A stretch of DNA of 64,000 nucleotides, from positions 2,356,001-2,420,000 of the forward strand of contig NZ_JACHBR010000001.1 in NCBI RefSeq assembly GCF_014200435.1, written 5' to 3'. Origin of the DNA: Sphaerisporangium krabiense. GTDB taxonomy: Bacteria > Actinomycetota > Actinomycetes > Streptosporangiales > Streptosporangiaceae. Under the pieces are notes generated by a model, which was not told the DNA's origin, did no database searches, and saw only the letters and a list, made by a program, of their open reading frames with translations. A program made the translations under genes and the position numbers. This document shows, one piece after another, positions 12,274-22,706 of this stretch; positions within the stretch are counted from its first letter, which is position 1; the number at the start of each line of letters is the position of its first letter.

Positions 12274-12400
12274 CGCCCCTCCTCGCCTCGATGTGGACGG
12301 CGCCACCGTACGCACCAGGCAGGCCACACGACCACGGACAAACTGCTATCGCCCAGGTCATGGCCTCATCTCCTTGACCATCAACCCACCCCATGATCGT

Positions 12401-12433
12401 GGGCCCGGCGTCGTTCCCCCGAACGCCGGGCCC
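12401..12433 (-). terminator. Terminator after the frameshifted small gene
   Basis: GGGCCCGGCGT pairs with ACGCCGGGCCC over 11 bp around an 11-base loop. It lies 27 bp past the stop of the frameshifted gene at 12460-12686. Confidence 0.65.
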
Positions 12434-12459
12434 CACACATCAGTTTCTATCGGCCGGCC

Positions 12460-15849: not shown

Positions 15850-16236
15850 TTATCCCCAGGGGGACAGTCTTAGCTCCGGCCGCCCTGCCTCACACAGGGC
15901 GGCATTCACTGCAGCCCGCAGCTTCGCATCCCGGCGCAGGTGAATGCGCACCGTTTCCGGCTTCTTGTTCAGTTTGGCGGCCGCCTTCGGGATGGAGAGG
16001 CCGATGGCTAGCAGGTAGGGCAGGTGCGGATGCCAGCTTGTGTCAGGCAGCGCCCCGCGCAGTCGCGGGCCGCGCAGTCGCATGGCCTCCGCGCGGAACT
16101 CGGGGTAGGCCTCGAAGTGCTGGTGCAGGCCGGCCTCGGCCTTGCCGAGCTTCCGGATGGCGACCCGGAAGCTCAGTCCCTCCCCCACCAGGCGGAGGAA
16201 CTCCGCGTGCCAGGAGGTGTCGCGGCGCTGGGGCAT
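15850..16236 (-). CDS. Operon protein E: duplicated helix-turn-helix-like protein
   Basis: The 128-aa protein is built from two related halves that both begin DTSWH: DTSWHAEFLRLVGEGLSFRV...KLGKAEAGLHQHFEAYPEF and DTSWHPHLPYLLAIGLSIPK...KLNKKPETVRIHLRRDAKL. Each half looks like a helix-turn-helix of the phage small-terminase or transposase type. The ATG shares one base with the stop of gene D (TGATG), so the two are coupled. It is the last gene of a five-gene operon. DNA binding is inferred from the fold pattern only. Confidence 0.65.
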   Translation of the reverse strand: MPQRRDTSWHAEFLRLVGEGLSFRVAIRKLGKAEAGLHQHFEAYPEFRAEAMRLRGPRLRGALPDTSWHPHLPYLLAIGLSIPKAAAKLNKKPETVRIHLRRDAKLRAAVNAALCEAGRPELRLSPWG

Positions 16237-16526
16237 CACACGGCCTTGCCCAAGAGGATCTTCTCCCATAGGTCGGCTATCTGGACGTACCGCATACGAG
16301 GGGTCTGCACCCTTTCTCCACCGGCGGTAGTCCGTTCGATGTAGCCCCGCCCGCCCGCCGTGACGAGGTAGTAGATCACCGGCTTGCACTCGCACGTCCA
16401 GCGCAGGACCCGACGGCGGTCCTCGGCGGCGGTGGCCGATTGCCAGGTGACGCGCTCGGCGTCGTCGTTCGGCTTGGGCACGTGCGGGCCGTGCCCGGCG
16501 CTGCCCTCGGTCGCGGTGAGCGTCAC
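16236..16526 (-). CDS. Operon protein D: hypothetical (96 aa)
   Basis: GTG at 16526 overlaps the stop of gene C by four bases (GTGA). The ordered core is RRRVLRWTCECKPVIYYLVT, then GGRGYIERTTAGGERVQTPR, then MRYVQIADLWEKILLGKAV. Its CxC pair could bind metal, perhaps with other residues. I recognise no family. Similar short genes occur in actinomycete integrative elements and plasmids near the replication and transfer control region. Confidence 0.6.
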   Translation of the reverse strand: MTLTATEGSAGHGPHVPKPNDDAERVTWQSATAAEDRRRVLRWTCECKPVIYYLVTAGGRGYIERTTAGGERVQTPRMRYVQIADLWEKILLGKAV

Positions 16527-16927
16527 GACGTCGGTCCTATCTGCCGTGGCGGCCGTCGTCCGGTGACCACCGCGGCGCATTCCTGGCACATCATCCGGCC
16601 CCGCTCCCAGATCAGCCGTGTCCCGGAGATCTCCGCGACCCGCGCCTGAACGCCGCACGCCGTGGTGGCCGTGGCGCGCGGGACGGCGAGCTCCCACGGC
16701 ACGGCGTGCTCAACGCAGGACGGGACGACGAGCGCGACGGCGTAACGCTCACGGCCGTCCTCGCCGGAGGACCGCGCCGGGTCTTCCGCCGGGCGCCCGG
16801 TGGCGGCAGGGAAGTACCCGCCCACCGAACGGCGCGCGTTCGGTCCGAGACCGTAGGGGTCGCGTGGTTGGCCGTCGACGAGCTGCTCCTCGCGAGGCTC
16901 TCGGGCGGGGCCGTCCTGCCCGGTCAT
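16523..16927 (-). CDS. Operon protein C: small Cys-containing hypothetical (134 aa)
   Basis: The ATG at 16927 overlaps the end of gene B (ATGA). The N-terminal half is polar and probably disordered. The C-terminal half has RYAVALVVPSCVEHAVPWEL and ends with a CxxC (GRMMCQECAAVVTGRRP), possibly a zinc ribbon formed with the earlier Cys. It overlaps gene D by four bases. I do not recognise the family. Confidence 0.58.
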   Translation of the reverse strand: MTGQDGPAREPREEQLVDGQPRDPYGLGPNARRSVGGYFPAATGRPAEDPARSSGEDGRERYAVALVVPSCVEHAVPWELAVPRATATTACGVQARVAEISGTRLIWERGRMMCQECAAVVTGRRPPRQIGPTS

Positions 16928-17229
16928 GCGACCCACGTCCGCCCGTGGCTGAGCGCCGCGGTGGCGCCGAGCTCGGCCTCGCGCATCTGCTCGCGCAGCT
17001 CGTCGAGGGTCGGGGCCTCGACTCGCAGGGCGGAGGGCGCGTTCCACATCGCGATGGCGACGAACCGGCGGGTGCCCACGCCGTAGAAGATGAACCAGCC
17101 GGGCTCGGCCTGGTCGAGCATGGCGGCTGCAGCCGTCTTGGCCGGGTCCCACCGGTGCGGGGTCTGGAGGTTCACGCGCGGGCTCTGCCCCTCGCCCTCG
17201 GCGCAGTGGCGCCCCTTGGGCCGCCTCAC
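16924..17229 (-). CDS. Operon protein B: hypothetical (101 aa)
   Basis: GTG at 17229 overlaps the stop of gene A by four bases. The ordered part is AMLDQAEPGWFIFYGVGTRR, then FVAIAMWNAPSALRVEAPTL, then DELREQMREAEL. This alpha/beta pattern is seen in small actinomycete proteins, often linked to integrative elements or phages, with no assigned role. Overlap with gene C (ATGA) indicates coupled translation. Confidence 0.6.
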   Translation of the reverse strand: MRRPKGRHCAEGEGQSPRVNLQTPHRWDPAKTAAAAMLDQAEPGWFIFYGVGTRRFVAIAMWNAPSALRVEAPTLDELREQMREAELGATAALSHGRTWVA

Positions 17230-17630
17230 GCTGCCGCTCCCACTCGATGCGGCTCGCGCGCGCCGACCGGAGGCGGGGTGTCCGGGGCCCGGCCGACCCC
17301 GCGCGGGATGGCGGGCACGGCCGGACGGGCGTGCCGCGCGAGGCGGGGCGCGGCCGCCGGCGGGTGGACCGCCGCAGGGCGCGCGGGGACGGCGGCCGGG
17401 AAGCGGCCGGCCAGGCCGAGGCGGCGCCGAGCGTCGAGCCGGGCGCGCATCTGCGCGGTGGTGGGGTGCTCCCACTCGTGGCCGTGACGGTGCGGCAGGC
17501 TGCCCGCGTCATGGGCGTACGGCGGGTGCCCGCACCAGCGGCAGCCGAGCGGCTTGGGCGGGGCGTCGGCGCGGTGGCGGATGCGGACGAGTCGGGGCGT
17601 TCTGGCTAAGGGGCCTCTACGATTGCTCAC
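17226..17630 (-). CDS. Operon protein A: zinc-finger-like hypothetical (134 aa)
   Basis: GTG at 17630 begins VSNRRGPLARTPRLVRIRHR. A probable zinc site is C-x-x-C-G-H-P-P-Y-A-H (CRWCGHPPYAH), followed by the His-rich HRHGHEWEHPTT. The last 60 residues are Ala/Pro/Arg-rich and low-complexity. It is the first gene of the five-gene operon and faces the XRE regulator across about 300 bp. The family is unknown to me. Confidence 0.55.
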   Translation of the reverse strand: MSNRRGPLARTPRLVRIRHRADAPPKPLGCRWCGHPPYAHDAGSLPHRHGHEWEHPTTAQMRARLDARRRLGLAGRFPAAVPARPAAVHPPAAAPRLARHARPAVPAIPRGVGRAPDTPPPVGAREPHRVGAAA

Positions 17631-17864
17631 GGGTCGGACCTCCAGAGTCCGGTCAAGGGCTCGTCCGGTCGTTTGCAGCGCCGGACGGGCCCGTCTTGCT
17701 TCTTGCAGTGGACGGTGCGACGGCGCAGGAGGTCTGGGATCACCGCGCCGCCACACCAGCTCATGGCCACGGAGCCCCCGGACGTCCTGTATCGAGCCGC
17801 GTCCGCGTAGGTCTTTGCGTGGCTTCGCTGCCATGCAAGCAACCGGCCGGTTACGGTTGGGAGA

Positions 17865-17916
17865 GTTGACCTGTTGCCCTGCAGGGACAGGTCAACGAAG
17901 TCAACAGGCGGTCAAC
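17865..17916. promoter_or_regulatory. GTCAAC operator array before the XRE regulator
   Basis: A perfect inverted repeat GTTGACCTGT (17865-17874) and ACAGGTCAAC (17887-17896) encloses the inner palindrome CCCTGCAGGG. Two further direct GTCAAC copies follow at 17900 and 17911, ending 14 bp before the ATG of the XRE gene. The array overlaps the region where transcription of the XRE gene must begin, so autorepression is likely. Control of the divergent operon starting at 17630 is possible. Confidence 0.62.
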
Positions 17917-17930
17917 ACCGGGACAGGCCA

Positions 17931-19103
17931 ATGACGAGCACCTTCGGCGAGCGGATGCGGGCCCTCCTGGCTGAGCGCGGCATGTCGCTGCGCGGGCTGG
18001 CAAGAGCGGTGCATTACGACGTTGGGTACCTGTCCAAGGTGGCCAATGACCGCAGGCGGCCCTCGCTGCAGGCGGCTGAGAGAATCGACGCCTCCTTGGA
18101 GGCGGGGGGCGAACTTGTGGCCCTGGCCCCCTCTCCTGTCCGCTCGGGGGCGCTCAACCCAGACGATGAGGACAGGCTCGTCCACGTCACTCAGAACCCG
18201 ATGCGACTGGATTCCGTCGTGGTCGAGGGCCTTGCAGCTACCTTGGCCAGCCATCGGCGTATCGAAGATGTCGTCGGATCCAGCGCCGTGTTGTCTGCCG
18301 CGCGAAGCCATCTTGACCTAGTTCTCCGCCTACTGAAAGAAACGCGTGGGCCTTTAGCAAAGGATCTGTCCGCGATCGCTTCCGAAGCGTCACAATTTGC
18401 CGGATGGTTAAGCACCGCAACCGGTGCTCACCGAGCAGCCGGCCCGCTGTATGACCAGGCACTACGACTCGGCCTGCAGGCAGGCGAAAACAACCTGGCC
18501 GCCACAGCACTGTCCATGCGCGGGCATCTGGCATGGGCAACAGACGACATCGTCGCTATGGCCAGCCTTTCAGAGGCCGCCGGGCAGCTCGCTTCCGCTG
18601 CAGGAACTCGGGCAGTCGCTATTCAGCAAGGTGGACGTGCATTAGCAATTCTCGGAGAGAAACAGGAAGCGCTACGAGCAATAGGCCGCGCGGAAGAAGT
18701 GCTCGACGGCCCCACCGACCGAGATGATCCCGACGGCCTGTACTTCTACAGCTCCGACTTGTTGACTATGCAACGCGGACTAATTTTGGCCTATCTGGCA
18801 GACTCGCCCGCCGAGCATGCTAAGGCAGCCGACCTCATCACCGTGGGTATTGAGGGGCTTCCTACAGAAATTCGAGACTCCGAGTGGGTCGCGTGGTACC
18901 GCGTCCAGGCCGCTGCAGCGCGTGCAGCCAGCGGGGAAGCCGAAGAGTCCGCAGCGGCACTGCGTGTGGCACTGCGCATCATCTCCGCCACAGGAGGCCG
19001 GAAGACCCGCGGCGATATCGCAAAGACGCACCGGTGGATGGCCGCACGCTGGCCGAGTAACCCTGCCATTGCCGAGCTCGGTGAATACCTACGCTCAGCC
19101 TGA
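17931..19103 (+). CDS. XRE-family regulator with a TPR-like C-terminal domain
   Basis: The 390-aa protein starts MTSTFGERMRALLAERGMSL. A helix-turn-helix occupies about residues 5-60 (RGLARAVHYDVGYLSKVAND). The rest is an all-helical repeat region (LSTATGAHRAAGPLYDQALR, ALSMRGHLAWATDDIVAMAS, AIQQGGRALAILGEKQEALR), typical of actinomycete XRE-TPR regulators that may sense a peptide or metabolite. I chose the ATG at 17931 because it follows the operator array and fits the family start. Two pterin dehydratase genes follow on the same strand at short spacing. Confidence 0.85.
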   Translation: MTSTFGERMRALLAERGMSLRGLARAVHYDVGYLSKVANDRRRPSLQAAERIDASLEAGGELVALAPSPVRSGALNPDDEDRLVHVTQNPMRLDSVVVEGLAATLASHRRIEDVVGSSAVLSAARSHLDLVLRLLKETRGPLAKDLSAIASEASQFAGWLSTATGAHRAAGPLYDQALRLGLQAGENNLAATALSMRGHLAWATDDIVAMASLSEAAGQLASAAGTRAVAIQQGGRALAILGEKQEALRAIGRAEEVLDGPTDRDDPDGLYFYSSDLLTMQRGLILAYLADSPAEHAKAADLITVGIEGLPTEIRDSEWVAWYRVQAAAARAASGEAEESAAALRVALRIISATGGRKTRGDIAKTHRWMAARWPSNPAIAELGEYLRSA

Positions 19104-19149: not shown

Positions 19150-19458
19150 GTGAGTCTACGAACGCCCCTCACACCTGAACGTGTGACAGAGCGTCTCAGT
19201 GATACCGGATGGACTGGCGACACCGTCGAGATCAGCCGAACCTACGCCGTTGAGTACGACACGGCGATTCGTATCGTCGCCGCGGTGGGTGTGGCGGCCA
19301 TCGAGCTGGAGCACCGACCAGACATCGACATCCGTTGGGACCGACTGCGGTTCGCCATGACCACGCACACCGCTGGGGATGTCGTTACCGAACTCGACTT
19401 CGCGCTGGCAGAACGGATCAACGAAATAGCTCGCCAATATGGTGCTCAGCCGCTGTGA
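19150..19458 (+). CDS. Pterin-4a-carbinolamine dehydratase-like protein
   Basis: The 102-aa protein has the PCD/DCoH signature EHRPDIDIRWDRLRFAMTTH then TAGDVVTELDFALAERI. The usual first His of the active-site H-H-P-D is replaced by Glu (E-H-R-P-D), so catalysis may be weakened. The GTG start has an AGGGAGG ribosome site. The family dehydrates 4a-hydroxytetrahydropterin in aromatic amino acid hydroxylation. No hydroxylase is nearby, so a moonlighting or regulatory role is possible. It lies 46 bp after the XRE regulator. Confidence 0.8.
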   Translation: MSLRTPLTPERVTERLSDTGWTGDTVEISRTYAVEYDTAIRIVAAVGVAAIELEHRPDIDIRWDRLRFAMTTHTAGDVVTELDFALAERINEIARQYGAQPL

Positions 19459-19482: not shown

Positions 19483-19796
19483 ATGCCGCAGCCTCTCAGT
19501 GAACGGGAGATCAGCACGCTTCTCGGGTTCCATCCGGGGTGGCAGCGAGAGGGAAATTCCATCACGCGCACTTTCACGCACACCTATCACGAATGCGTGC
19601 ACCTTGCGATGTACGTGGCGGCCAAGGCCCGTGTGAAATCGGCCACCACCCGGACATCCACATTACCTGGCAGCGCATCCGATTCGAGATCACGACTCAC
19701 GATGCGGGCAACCAGCTAACAGAGAGGGATTTTCAGCTCGCGCGGCATATCGACGCGATCGCCGCCGGCCACGGTGCCACCGAGCTGAGCGACTGA
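19483..19796 (+). pseudogene. Second pterin dehydratase gene, single-base frameshift
   Basis: The first frame reads MPQPLSEREISTLLGFHPGW to AMYVAAKAR. Restoring one G after about 19635 joins it to VEIGHHPDIHITWQRIRFEI then TTHDAGNQLTERDFQLARHI, a complete PCD domain with the canonical GHHPDI active site. Without it the frame is lost in the middle of the catalytic motif. An AAAGG ribosome site precedes the ATG. This copy has the better active-site motif yet is the broken one. It was probably a tandem duplicate of the gene 25 bp upstream. Confidence 0.72.
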
Positions 19797-21033: not shown

Positions 21034-22479
21034 TCAGGCCGTGACGACGGTGGGGCGGGCGGCCGGGCCGGTGGCCATCAGCGCGCCGATGACCTCGGCG
21101 GCGTGCCGGGCGGCCTCGGGCGACAGCCTGCTGTAGACCTCGGCCAGCGCCAGGACGTCGGCGGGCACGGCTACGCCGAGTGCCGCGCCCGCGGGGGCGG
21201 GCGCCGGGCCGCTGTCGCGGGGGACGGCCATGACGCTGTCGATGACGTCGGCCGCGCGCCCGTCGGCCTCGGGCGACAGGTGGCCGTAGATGTCGGCGGT
21301 CACGGTGATCGACTCGTGGCCGAGGCGCTTGGAGACCGTGTCCAGGCTGACGTTCTCGCCGAGGAGCTCCAGGGCATGAGCGTGCCGGAACTTGTGAGGG
21401 GTCGCGGCCGTCTGGATCTGCCGCTCGCGGGCCGTGGCCACGACCTTGGACCAGTGGGTCTGGTGCCAGCCGCTGCTGTTCAGGATCCCGCCACGGGCGC
21501 CCGTGAAGATCAGCCCCTGGGCGGGCACGTCCTTGGTCCGGCGGCGGAGCATGAGCACGACACTGTCGGGGATCCGGATCGTGCGCAGCCCGGCGTCCGA
21601 CTTCGCGTACGGCGCGAGGTAGTTGCGCCGCCTCTCGTCCTCCTTGACGACCTGGGCGACGGTAAGCAGCTTGCGCCGCAGGTCGATGTCACACGGCCGC
21701 AGCGCGATCATCTCGCCCCAGCGCAACCCCGTGCCCATCGCCAGGGTCAGGATGTCCCCGGCGAGCTGAGACACCTCATACCCAATCGCGATCCAGTCGG
21801 CGATCTCCAGGCCCGTCGGCACCTGCTCCAGCGTCACCGACCGCCCCGGCCGCTCCGGGAGGATCACCCCGACGCACGGGTTCACCTCGATCGGAATCGA
21901 GGCCTTGCGCGCCGCCCAGGACAGCGCCGGGCTGAGCACGCCCCCATGCACGTTGGAGATCGTCTTGGGCGAGTAGGGGATCCGCTCGCCCCTGCGCGAG
22001 TAGGTGCGGCCACGCATCCAGAACACCCACGCCTGGACGAGCTCGGTCGTCACCTCGGCGACGGGCCGCCCGCCGAGCGGGCCCACGCGGGTGTCGTCCT
22101 CCAGGGTGACGATCGCGCCGCGGACGTGGCCGCCGTACAGCCGCCGGTACCCGGCGACCTGGCGCGGCTCGGCCTTGCCCGTCTTGCCCAGGTACGCGAG
22201 GTAGTCGTACACGACCTGCGTGAGGCTGGGCCCCGCCGCAGAGGTCTCCAGCTCGGGCTCGGCCGGGGCTAGCTCCAGCCCCCGGCACCCCTTCGGGTAG
22301 CCGGCGGGACGCCGGTCCCCGGCGGCCTCGACCTTGGACTTGAACTTCTTGGCGATGCGCTCGGTGTCGCAGGTCTCGCCGTCCTCGCGTCCGTCGCGTG
22401 CGCCGCCTTCGCGCCAGCAGACGCGGAAGGTGGTCCGGCTGGTGTGCTTACTGGTCAAACGTCGTATCCATGCTGCCAT
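21034..22479 (-). CDS. Site-specific tyrosine integrase
   Basis: The 481-aa protein has all the catalytic residues: R253 (TGLRWGE), K293, H362 and R365 (PHKFRHAHA), H388 (GHES) and the nucleophile Y398 (ADIYGHLS). The N-terminal arm-binding and SAM-like domains are present, so it looks functional. I chose ATG 22479, with ribosome site AAGGGGTG, over an upstream start. It sits beside the 3' end of tRNA-Ser(CGA), the usual target position for such enzymes. The C-terminus has an unusual duplicated LSPEA motif (residues 401-418 and 452-469) after the active-site Tyr. Confidence 0.92.
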   Translation of the reverse strand: MAAWIRRLTSKHTSRTTFRVCWREGGARDGREDGETCDTERIAKKFKSKVEAAGDRRPAGYPKGCRGLELAPAEPELETSAAGPSLTQVVYDYLAYLGKTGKAEPRQVAGYRRLYGGHVRGAIVTLEDDTRVGPLGGRPVAEVTTELVQAWVFWMRGRTYSRRGERIPYSPKTISNVHGGVLSPALSWAARKASIPIEVNPCVGVILPERPGRSVTLEQVPTGLEIADWIAIGYEVSQLAGDILTLAMGTGLRWGEMIALRPCDIDLRRKLLTVAQVVKEDERRRNYLAPYAKSDAGLRTIRIPDSVVLMLRRRTKDVPAQGLIFTGARGGILNSSGWHQTHWSKVVATARERQIQTAATPHKFRHAHALELLGENVSLDTVSKRLGHESITVTADIYGHLSPEADGRAADVIDSVMAVPRDSGPAPAPAGAALGVAVPADVLALAEVYSRLSPEAARHAAEVIGALMATGPAARPTVVTA

Positions 22480-22526
22480 CTGGCACCCCTTTTGATCAGG
22501 GGTAGGCACCACCGCCACCGGGACGC

Positions 22527-22572
22527 GCATTCAAGATCATGTCTGTAAATGTGCTGCAATGATCTTGAATGC
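22527..22572. repeat. 14-bp perfect inverted repeat between integrase and tRNA-Ser
   Basis: GCATTCAAGATCAT (22527-22540) and ATGATCTTGAATGC (22559-22572) are exact reverse complements around an 18-bp spacer. The site lies in the 140 bp between the integrase start and the tRNA 3' end, where arm-type integrase sites and the promoter should be. Confidence 0.7.
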
Positions 22573-22573
22573 G

Positions 22574-22612
22574 AAGGGCCTCTGAGCGAGTTCTAGCAGC
22601 TCAGAGGCCCTT
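22574..22612 (-). terminator. Terminator of tRNA-Ser(CGA)
   Basis: AAGGGCCTCTGAGC pairs with GCTCAGAGGCCCTT over 14 bp around an 11-base loop. It begins 8 bp past the tRNA end. Confidence 0.75.
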
Positions 22613-22619
22613 GTAGTGG

Positions 22620-22706
22620 CGGTGGAGGTGGGATTTGAACCCACGGATGAGTTGCCCCATCACACGCTTTCGAGGCGTGCGCCCTCGGCCACTAGGCGAC
22701 TCCACC
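22620..22706 (-). tRNA. tRNA-Ser (anticodon CGA)
   Basis: On the minus strand the acceptor GGTGGAG pairs with CTCCACC, and the discriminator is G. The anticodon CGA lies at 22672-22670 within a CACGC/GCGTG stem. The variable arm is long, as in class II serine tRNAs, and the T loop is TTCAAAT. Its 3' end faces the integrase, making it the likely integration target and the right boundary of the accessory region. Confidence 0.96.

Follow-up and report, generated by a model that had tools for sequence, protein, structure and literature searches.

A predicted antisense RNA family at the start of XRE-linked operons of small overlapping genes in Sphaerisporangium

The closest described counterparts of the locus analyzed here are the WhiJ/BldB (XRE-DUF397) loci. 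According to work on iosA-whiJ9-bldB9 (PMC10294661), such loci occur as many paralogous copies per genome and consist of an XRE regulator divergent from a small-protein gene, together with small partner proteins; WhiJ9 is associated with three intergenic direct repeats CGXXCTCAAC, and the iosA transcript is leaderless. In SymE/SymR (PMC1891008), a cis-encoded small RNA represses a small protein and a separate transcription factor forms a second layer of control. The ANTAR-target RNAs of actinobacteria carry two hairpins near the ribosome-binding site; PMC8164766 defines them by two stem-loops whose hexanucleotide loops both have A in position 1 and G in position 4. Here we compare with these systems an operon of five small genes, A to E, and a predicted RNA at its start in Sphaerisporangium krabiense. 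The DNA analyzed, hereafter the window, is a stretch of 64,000 nucleotides (contig NZ_JACHBR010000001.1, positions 2,356,001 to 2,420,000), and all coordinates refer to it.

The five open reading frames lie on the minus strand at 15850-17630, and they overlap at every junction. We consider it probable that they form an XRE-controlled operon for small signaling proteins, similar to WhiJ/BldB, which is silenced by a new family of cis-antisense RNAs. Sequence statistics support the gene set, its overlaps, the selection on the frames, the structure and strand of the RNA, its promoter and terminator signals and the linkage to XRE genes. The locus differs from WhiJ/BldB in three respects. It contains four to five overlapping small genes; no DUF397 protein is present among A to E (Pfam matches up to E 1) or among 56 relatives of D and 57 of B; and gene A has a leader with a Shine-Dalgarno sequence and a predicted antisense RNA, whereas iosA is leaderless.

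Gene A (17226-17630; 134 amino acids, GTG start) is the first gene of the operon and encodes a small protein with a zinc-type CxxCGHxP motif. It is followed by B (16924-17229; 101 amino acids, GTG start; predicted alpha-beta3-alpha order), C (16523-16927; 134 amino acids, ATG start; a DPYGxGPxARxSVGGYFP motif and a cysteine-rich C-terminal domain), D (16236-16526; 96 amino acids, GTG start; a CxC protein with four predicted beta strands and a helix) and E (15850-16236; 128 amino acids, ATG start; two helix-turn-helix (HTH)-like repeats). When 200 genomes from the family were searched with C, 8 gave a match, including the own genome, and 7 of these 8 belong to the genus of the window. The resulting set of 18 cassettes contains the window, a paralogue from the same genome and 16 of 17 loci from other genomes; L042 (genome G105), with a weak C match interrupted by a stop and no match to A to E, was dropped. 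Six cassettes are located in one genome, G108. B is present in 18/18 cassettes, D in 15/18, an intact A in 9/18 and an intact E in 4/18; remnants of A are still readable in L003 and L033. The motif of C can be recognized in all 18 cassettes, in a degenerate form in L036. C is modular: the motif is constant, and its C-terminal continuation is cysteine-rich in some copies and a different domain in others (L037-L041).

The overlaps recur in these relatives. An NTGA overlap was found at 9/9 A-B, 18/18 B-C and 14/14 separate C-D junctions, and TGATG at the D-E junction of all four cassettes that have E; in L026, L028, L033 and L040 the start of C had been set farther upstream; the stop codon of B nonetheless coincides with an in-frame NTG, and these are counted as overlaps. 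The overlaps thus exceed chance, judging from the compared sequences. Furthermore, nonsynonymous divergence was lower than synonymous divergence (pN < pS) in 364 of 366 pairwise comparisons: 36/36 for A, 153/153 for B, 65/66 for C (from 12 of the 18 copies, with L034 and L037-L041 left out), 104/105 for D and 6/6 for E. The initial annotation had proposed five minus-strand frames joined by GTGA (A-B), ATGA (B-C), GTGA (C-D) and TGATG (D-E), and had named purifying selection on them and the occurrence of their homologues as a set as checks. All frames are present at the positions given, the junctions are exact, selection was borne out, and gene order and overlaps recur across the 18 Sphaerisporangium cassettes.

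Just beyond the region covered by that annotation, the 70 bases up to the start codon of A form an element with two covarying hairpins. The predicted antisense RNA of about 70 nt (17629-17700, plus strand, ends approximate) spans the start codon and the Shine-Dalgarno sequence of A. Its recognition hairpin (17632-17654, plus strand) has an 8-bp stem and a 7-nt loop, which lies opposite the Shine-Dalgarno sequence (about 17640-17644, minus strand). The terminator hairpin (17657-17692, plus strand) is followed by a T-rich tail, and a terminator-like site was located at 17683-17696. A predicted -10 box, TACGAT (17618-17623, plus strand), lies inside the first codons of A. In four of four examples the antisense strand folded in the same way: an 8-bp hairpin whose 7-nt loop contains CUC is separated by two unpaired A from a long terminator hairpin. 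In 13 copies aligned with MAFFT, which is blind to structure, two-sided changes occurred at 4 of the 6 pairs of the second hairpin, with a covariation of 0.312 versus 0.113 after shuffling. For 70 elements, in an alignment that was fitted to the model and hence is biased towards structure, helix 1 was paired to 94.8% and helix 3 to 94.4%; two-sided changes affected 6 of 7 pairs in the former and 4 of 6 in the latter, and covariation was 0.424 versus 0.144 in shuffles.

The element is widespread in the family. A first covariance model detected it in 11/11 genomes of the genus (E up to 0.1), at cassettes and at other genes, and in 128/200 genomes of the family (E up to 0.01). A second model, constructed with 70 matches from across the family, scored 77.2 bits at 17628-17697 of the window. 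It gave 47-77 bits for 11 cassette elements, as compared with 16.1 for the best of 20 control regions, and with a limit of E 0.001 it detected the element in 152/200 genomes of the order, of which three belong to other families; the E-values are rough, and this count includes weaker matches (E 1e-3 to 1e-5), many of them counted irrespective of the -10 box. Single genomes contain up to 24 matches. In 65 of 69 distinct elements the frame behind has at least 45 codons, as compared with 53% of control start codons. In a sample of the whole phylum, a limit of E 1e-4 left matches in 6/396 genomes, the own genome among them; one further match, in G548, reached E 6.9e-10 and has no -10 box, and the other four (E 7e-6 to 4e-5) are treated as chance. 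A second match in the window itself (12354-12438, minus strand; E 0.00092) has no -10 box either, is probably due to chance and was not counted. A search of Rfam with 4 kb around the operon and with nine element loci, at E up to 1, yielded nothing at or above the gathering score for the element, just one chance match each, located elsewhere or far below threshold. In the open-access literature searched, no title or abstract was found to describe this RNA or a cassette of genes A to D.

Several signals indicate on which strand the RNA is read. G-U wobble pairs of the antisense strand (A.C on the sense strand) occupy 47 cells of the 70 aligned elements, as compared with 11 for G-U pairs of the sense strand. 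A TANNNT box of the antisense strand is fixed at sense positions +13 to +8 inside the open reading frame in 58/69 elements; the background frequency is 0.0012 per position. The box is present in 10 of 12 cassette elements, including the window (L035 and L033 are without it). Of 11 elements held out from the alignment, 8 have it, among them all seven strong ones; some of these are closely related to aligned sequences. The three without it are L198 and two weak elements from the genus, L096 and L113. The wobble position of codon 4, which falls within the box, is T in 61/69 elements, although T makes up just 8.3% of third positions farther along the same frames. The spacing between box and start codon is compatible with transcription beginning at the complement of the start codon. 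Behind the antisense terminator stem, 9 nt contain on average 4.03 T versus 1.4 expected, two of these positions being part of the model and the others lying outside it; such a tail after the hairpin is as expected for an intrinsic terminator. Because of the wobble bias, the fixed box and the T-rich tail, we read the RNA as antisense. The N-termini encoded at sense +4 to +15 of the 69 elements look similar in otherwise unrelated proteins (often N, Q or K as residue 3 and R as residue 5), consistent with an antisense promoter located in the first codons.

The regulator that faces the operon (17931-19103, plus strand) is an XRE protein, HTH_31 by Pfam and NsdA family TPR-like by NCBIfam, with a score of 118 bits against NF053720 at a curated cut-off of 75. 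Between it and A is a putative operator array (17865-17916) with GTTGAC at 17911-17916, 17900-17905 and 17891-17896 on the minus strand and an inverted GTCAAC at 17865-17870; for the three direct repeats (17891-17916) 0.03 chance matches are expected when up to three mismatches are allowed. This supports the earlier description of the operon as facing an XRE-TPR regulator next to an array of operators. GTTGAC reads GTCAAC on the other strand, which may be compared with the three repeats reported for WhiJ9. Thirteen of the 18 cassettes have a full-length XRE-type gene next to them, in 8 cases divergently and in 5 upstream on the same strand; these assignments follow from sequence similarity, and only the window regulator was scanned with Pfam and NCBIfam. 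An XRE gene with one or more adjacent small genes, at several paralogous loci per genome, is thus a property that these cassettes share with XRE-DUF397 loci. The linkage extends to the RNA element in general: an XRE-related gene was found in 13/20 element regions versus 1/20 control regions, which were round-number positions in the same four genomes (14 versus 1 after a second round), and within 2 kb of 15 of 22 elements.

The repeats differ between cassettes. GTTGAC spaced by 11 and 9 bases occurs in the window and in L029, and two of the three repeats are kept in L030; L031 and L033 share TGATGG and CCATCAA at identical offsets, and L027 and L034 share GGATATCC/GTTATCC in their intergenic regions. 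The type of repeat tracks the HTH class of the adjacent regulator, and we take the repeats as predicted operators. The window and L030 regulators have 78% of 78 HTH residues in common, but their C-terminal parts are not similar at E up to 0.001. For L030 and L040 the situation is reversed: 70% of 315 C-terminal residues agree, and the HTH parts show no similarity at the same threshold. The cassette regulators (17931-19103 and those of L027-L040) are domain chimaeras, in which the HTH and C-terminal halves were swapped independently. This swapping distinguishes them from other NsdA family regulators, with which the window protein is aligned by its score above the cut-off.

In the mechanism that we propose, the divergent NsdA-type regulator would bind the GTTGAC repeats between the two start codons and switch the promoter of A, as WhiJ9 does at iosA in Streptomyces. 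An RNA of about 70 nt would start at the promoter within the first codons of A, run on the opposite strand across the start codon and the Shine-Dalgarno sequence, and end at the intrinsic terminator. The loop of its recognition hairpin, being complementary to the Shine-Dalgarno sequence, would pair with the A leader and block the entry of ribosomes. Since A to E overlap, a block on A would silence all five genes, and the five proteins would be set together. We infer that the RNA is transcribed, that it represses A, that the five genes are coupled and that the proteins act in development or metabolism in a manner similar to WhiJ/BldB. The sequence signals make a functional antisense RNA very likely, and repression of A in cis by this predicted RNA is reasonably likely. 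For the wider WhiJ/BldB-like role of the proteins, which we propose by analogy, the chances appear even. The layout is reminiscent of SymE/SymR, with a cis-encoded RNA and a separate transcription factor as second layer, both predicted here; the proteins are unrelated by name and host, and the RNA in question here is a structured, XRE-linked family present at up to 24 places per genome.

A number of observations weigh against this reading. In addition to the bias of the fitted alignment, the aligned elements are related by descent, and the wobble asymmetry shrinks when redundancy is filtered out, to 26 versus 8 in 36 sequences below 80% identity and 9 versus 7 in 13 below 70%. The exact -10 box is absent from 11/69 elements, and no enrichment of a -35 box was found (8 elements with 4/6 matches versus 6.3 expected, none with 5). 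The inner part of hairpin 1 is just 52.8% paired as modeled, and the count of further pair types in the 70 elements is no higher than in shuffles. No match to the element was obtained at the first gene of 6/18 cassettes (L003, L032, L034, L037, L038 and L039), and that of L033 is weak (27.6 bits). The sense strand can also fold into a hairpin around its own Shine-Dalgarno sequence, which keeps a sense leader in play. At the protein level, A, B and C are absent from all 20 further D loci examined, 18 of which are in other genera. Foldseek searches of the Protein Data Bank (PDB) gave no confident match for the model of D (best E 0.09, TM 0.39) or B (best E 0.23), and homology assigns no function to A to E.

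The alternative that survives best, albeit as an unlikely one, is a strict type I toxin-antitoxin system, in which A or another protein of the operon would be toxic, the antisense RNA the antitoxin and the locus addictive. It explains the same wobble, -10 box and tail signals, and the layout of a small protein, a cis antisense RNA and a separate transcription factor resembles that described for SymE/SymR. According to PMC12390103, a 2025 study of a cyanobacterium, type I systems had until then been found in Proteobacteria, Firmicutes and Tenericutes only. The proteins behind the element speak against a toxin, as they come from many families: the frames at 69 distinct elements are A-like (23), of a GW..SDAGRxWATR family (17), B (2), HATPase-like (2) or other (22), and three are shorter than 45 codons. 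A is also lost in 9/18 cassettes, and 14 of 14 XRE-DUF397 pairs tested did not act as type II systems, according to PMC10364602.

Less likely still is a leader on the sense strand, in which the hairpins belong to the mRNA of A and the second one, holding the Shine-Dalgarno sequence, is gated either by a ligand or by an RNA-binding protein, which might be encoded in the operon itself. This was our first reading, and it was demoted by the codon-4 T, the wobbles, the -10 box and the tail. The position of the element immediately before a start codon in every case, a Shine-Dalgarno sequence in the loop at 7-10 nt from the start codon in 52/70 elements and the two-sided changes that preserve the hairpin are all consistent with a leader. 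The wobble asymmetry favors the opposite strand, on which the -10 box and T-rich tail are also found, hairpin 1 has no ANTAR-type loop, and the element has no match in Rfam. ANTAR-target RNAs were considered and rejected as well. On the sense strand, A1 (49/70) and G4 (55/70) are frequent in the second loop, but this loop is 7 nt long in 40/70 elements, no AxxGxx hexaloop occurs in the apical part of hairpin 1 among its 30 commonest forms, and the strand signals point the other way.

It is improbable that the small proteins are ordinary paralogues whose ribosome-binding site is conserved, with the hairpins forming an intergenic terminator and the -10 box being a coincidence or a weak spurious promoter. 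The share of the signal that comes from the start codon and the Shine-Dalgarno sequence is indeed expected at any gene, but this explanation does not account for covariation in both hairpins, the fixed TANNNT in 58/69, third-position T contrary to codon usage, or the XRE linkage of 13/20 versus 1/20.

The initial annotation had suggested the control module of an integrative element, or a defense or addiction system, and such a module of an element with the integrase at 21034-22530 beside tRNA-Ser(CGA) is very improbable: the integrase and the tRNA do lie 3.5 kb past the end of the regulator gene, but the one integrase relative found (L025 in S. album, 84% identical in the best segment and also next to tRNA-Ser(CGA)) showed no match to A to E in its 21 kb, no relative of the integrase was detected at the 17 other cassettes save an edge fragment at L038 (other integrase types were not searched), and none of these has a tRNA within 2 kb. 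No exact 15-base repeat of the tRNA-Ser/integrase junction (att site) occurs elsewhere in the window, and the left end of an integrative element is therefore not placed. The tyrosine integrase directly adjoins the tRNA gene (21034-22706). The suggestion of defense did not hold up either, as PADLOC, searched to E 1, gave no match for A to E; for the regulator it gave capH (E 8.2e-06), matched across the HTH only. Addiction survives in another form, in which the predicted antisense RNA over the start of A, a feature absent from the initial annotation, would be the candidate antitoxin.

The proteins themselves are predicted to be small signaling proteins, in part zinc-binding. As the initial annotation had said, their families are not recognizable: a Pfam search up to E 1 gave no match for A to D, and the 56 relatives of D and 57 of B gave scattered weak matches only, with no DUF397. 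The product of A matches phrog_20506 (E 1.2e-10). Its proposed zinc-type cysteine pair is retained as CxxC in 8/8 aligned copies, and the CxC pair of D is invariant in 15/15 cassette copies and 56/56 members of the wider family. The claim of zinc-type cysteines in C stands for the zinc-type copies, which have a C...CxxC set, and fails for the other copies, which have none. The HTH-like repeats of E are in line with a weak HTH match (E 0.0029, below the Pfam cut-off) and a visible internal DTSWH repeat. AlphaFold2 models reached a pLDDT of 87 for D and 79 for B. The order of elements in B prompted a comparison with a double-stranded RNA-binding domain, which came at rank 6 (E 1.1, probability 0.08) and was rejected; membership of B in the GW..SDAGRxWATR family (hhalign probability 6.7%) is not claimed. 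In L034, C and D share one frame; only the N-terminal motif of C is retained there (L034:6960-7415) and runs in frame into D, which looks like a deletion of the middle part. This run-in suggests that the C motif may work together with D.

Most of the close homologues of B and D that carry a species name come from Sphaerisporangium. The family of D is large in Streptosporangiaceae, with matches in 151/341 genomes and up to 14 in one. The initial annotation had counted singly occurring homologues as evidence against a system; the set as a whole recurs in 18 cassettes, and for D the objection holds in part, as it is solitary at the 20 further loci. In 7 of these 20, from several genera (L073, L074, L075, L076, L079, L080 and L087), the stand-alone D gene lies upstream of a gene that looks dapA-like, a recurring position for this CxC family.

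The recognition hairpin occurs in three main stem types, the CGGAC, CGCAC and CAGGA classes, and RNA from one locus could, given a shared stem type, silence other loci of the same type. As a tentative and rather doubtful extension, homologous cis-antisense RNAs, possibly the first such in Actinomycetota, might guard many XRE-linked small-protein operons across Streptosporangiales, with cross-silencing between RNAs of the same stem type; they might thus act as a combinatorial switchboard for development or specialized metabolism, built from a portable start-site module that passes from gene to gene. If the antisense reading is true, an apparently undescribed RNA family would be present in an order of actinomycetes that produce antibiotics. 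The XRE small-protein loci, which are poorly understood, would then possess a second, RNA-based layer of control, and their function would become testable.

Some further observations were made. In L155, L165, L167 and L124, two or three elements on the same strand lie within a few kb, each at the start of another frame. Elements also cover the starts of HATPase-like genes, which resemble RsbW/SpoIIAB by eye (L116:1501-1569 and L126:1501-1570). Just downstream of the regulator in the window, 19150-19458 encodes a pterin-4a-carbinolamine dehydratase (Pfam, E 1.4e-19), and the small gene adjoining it (19483-19796) is similar to it by eye.

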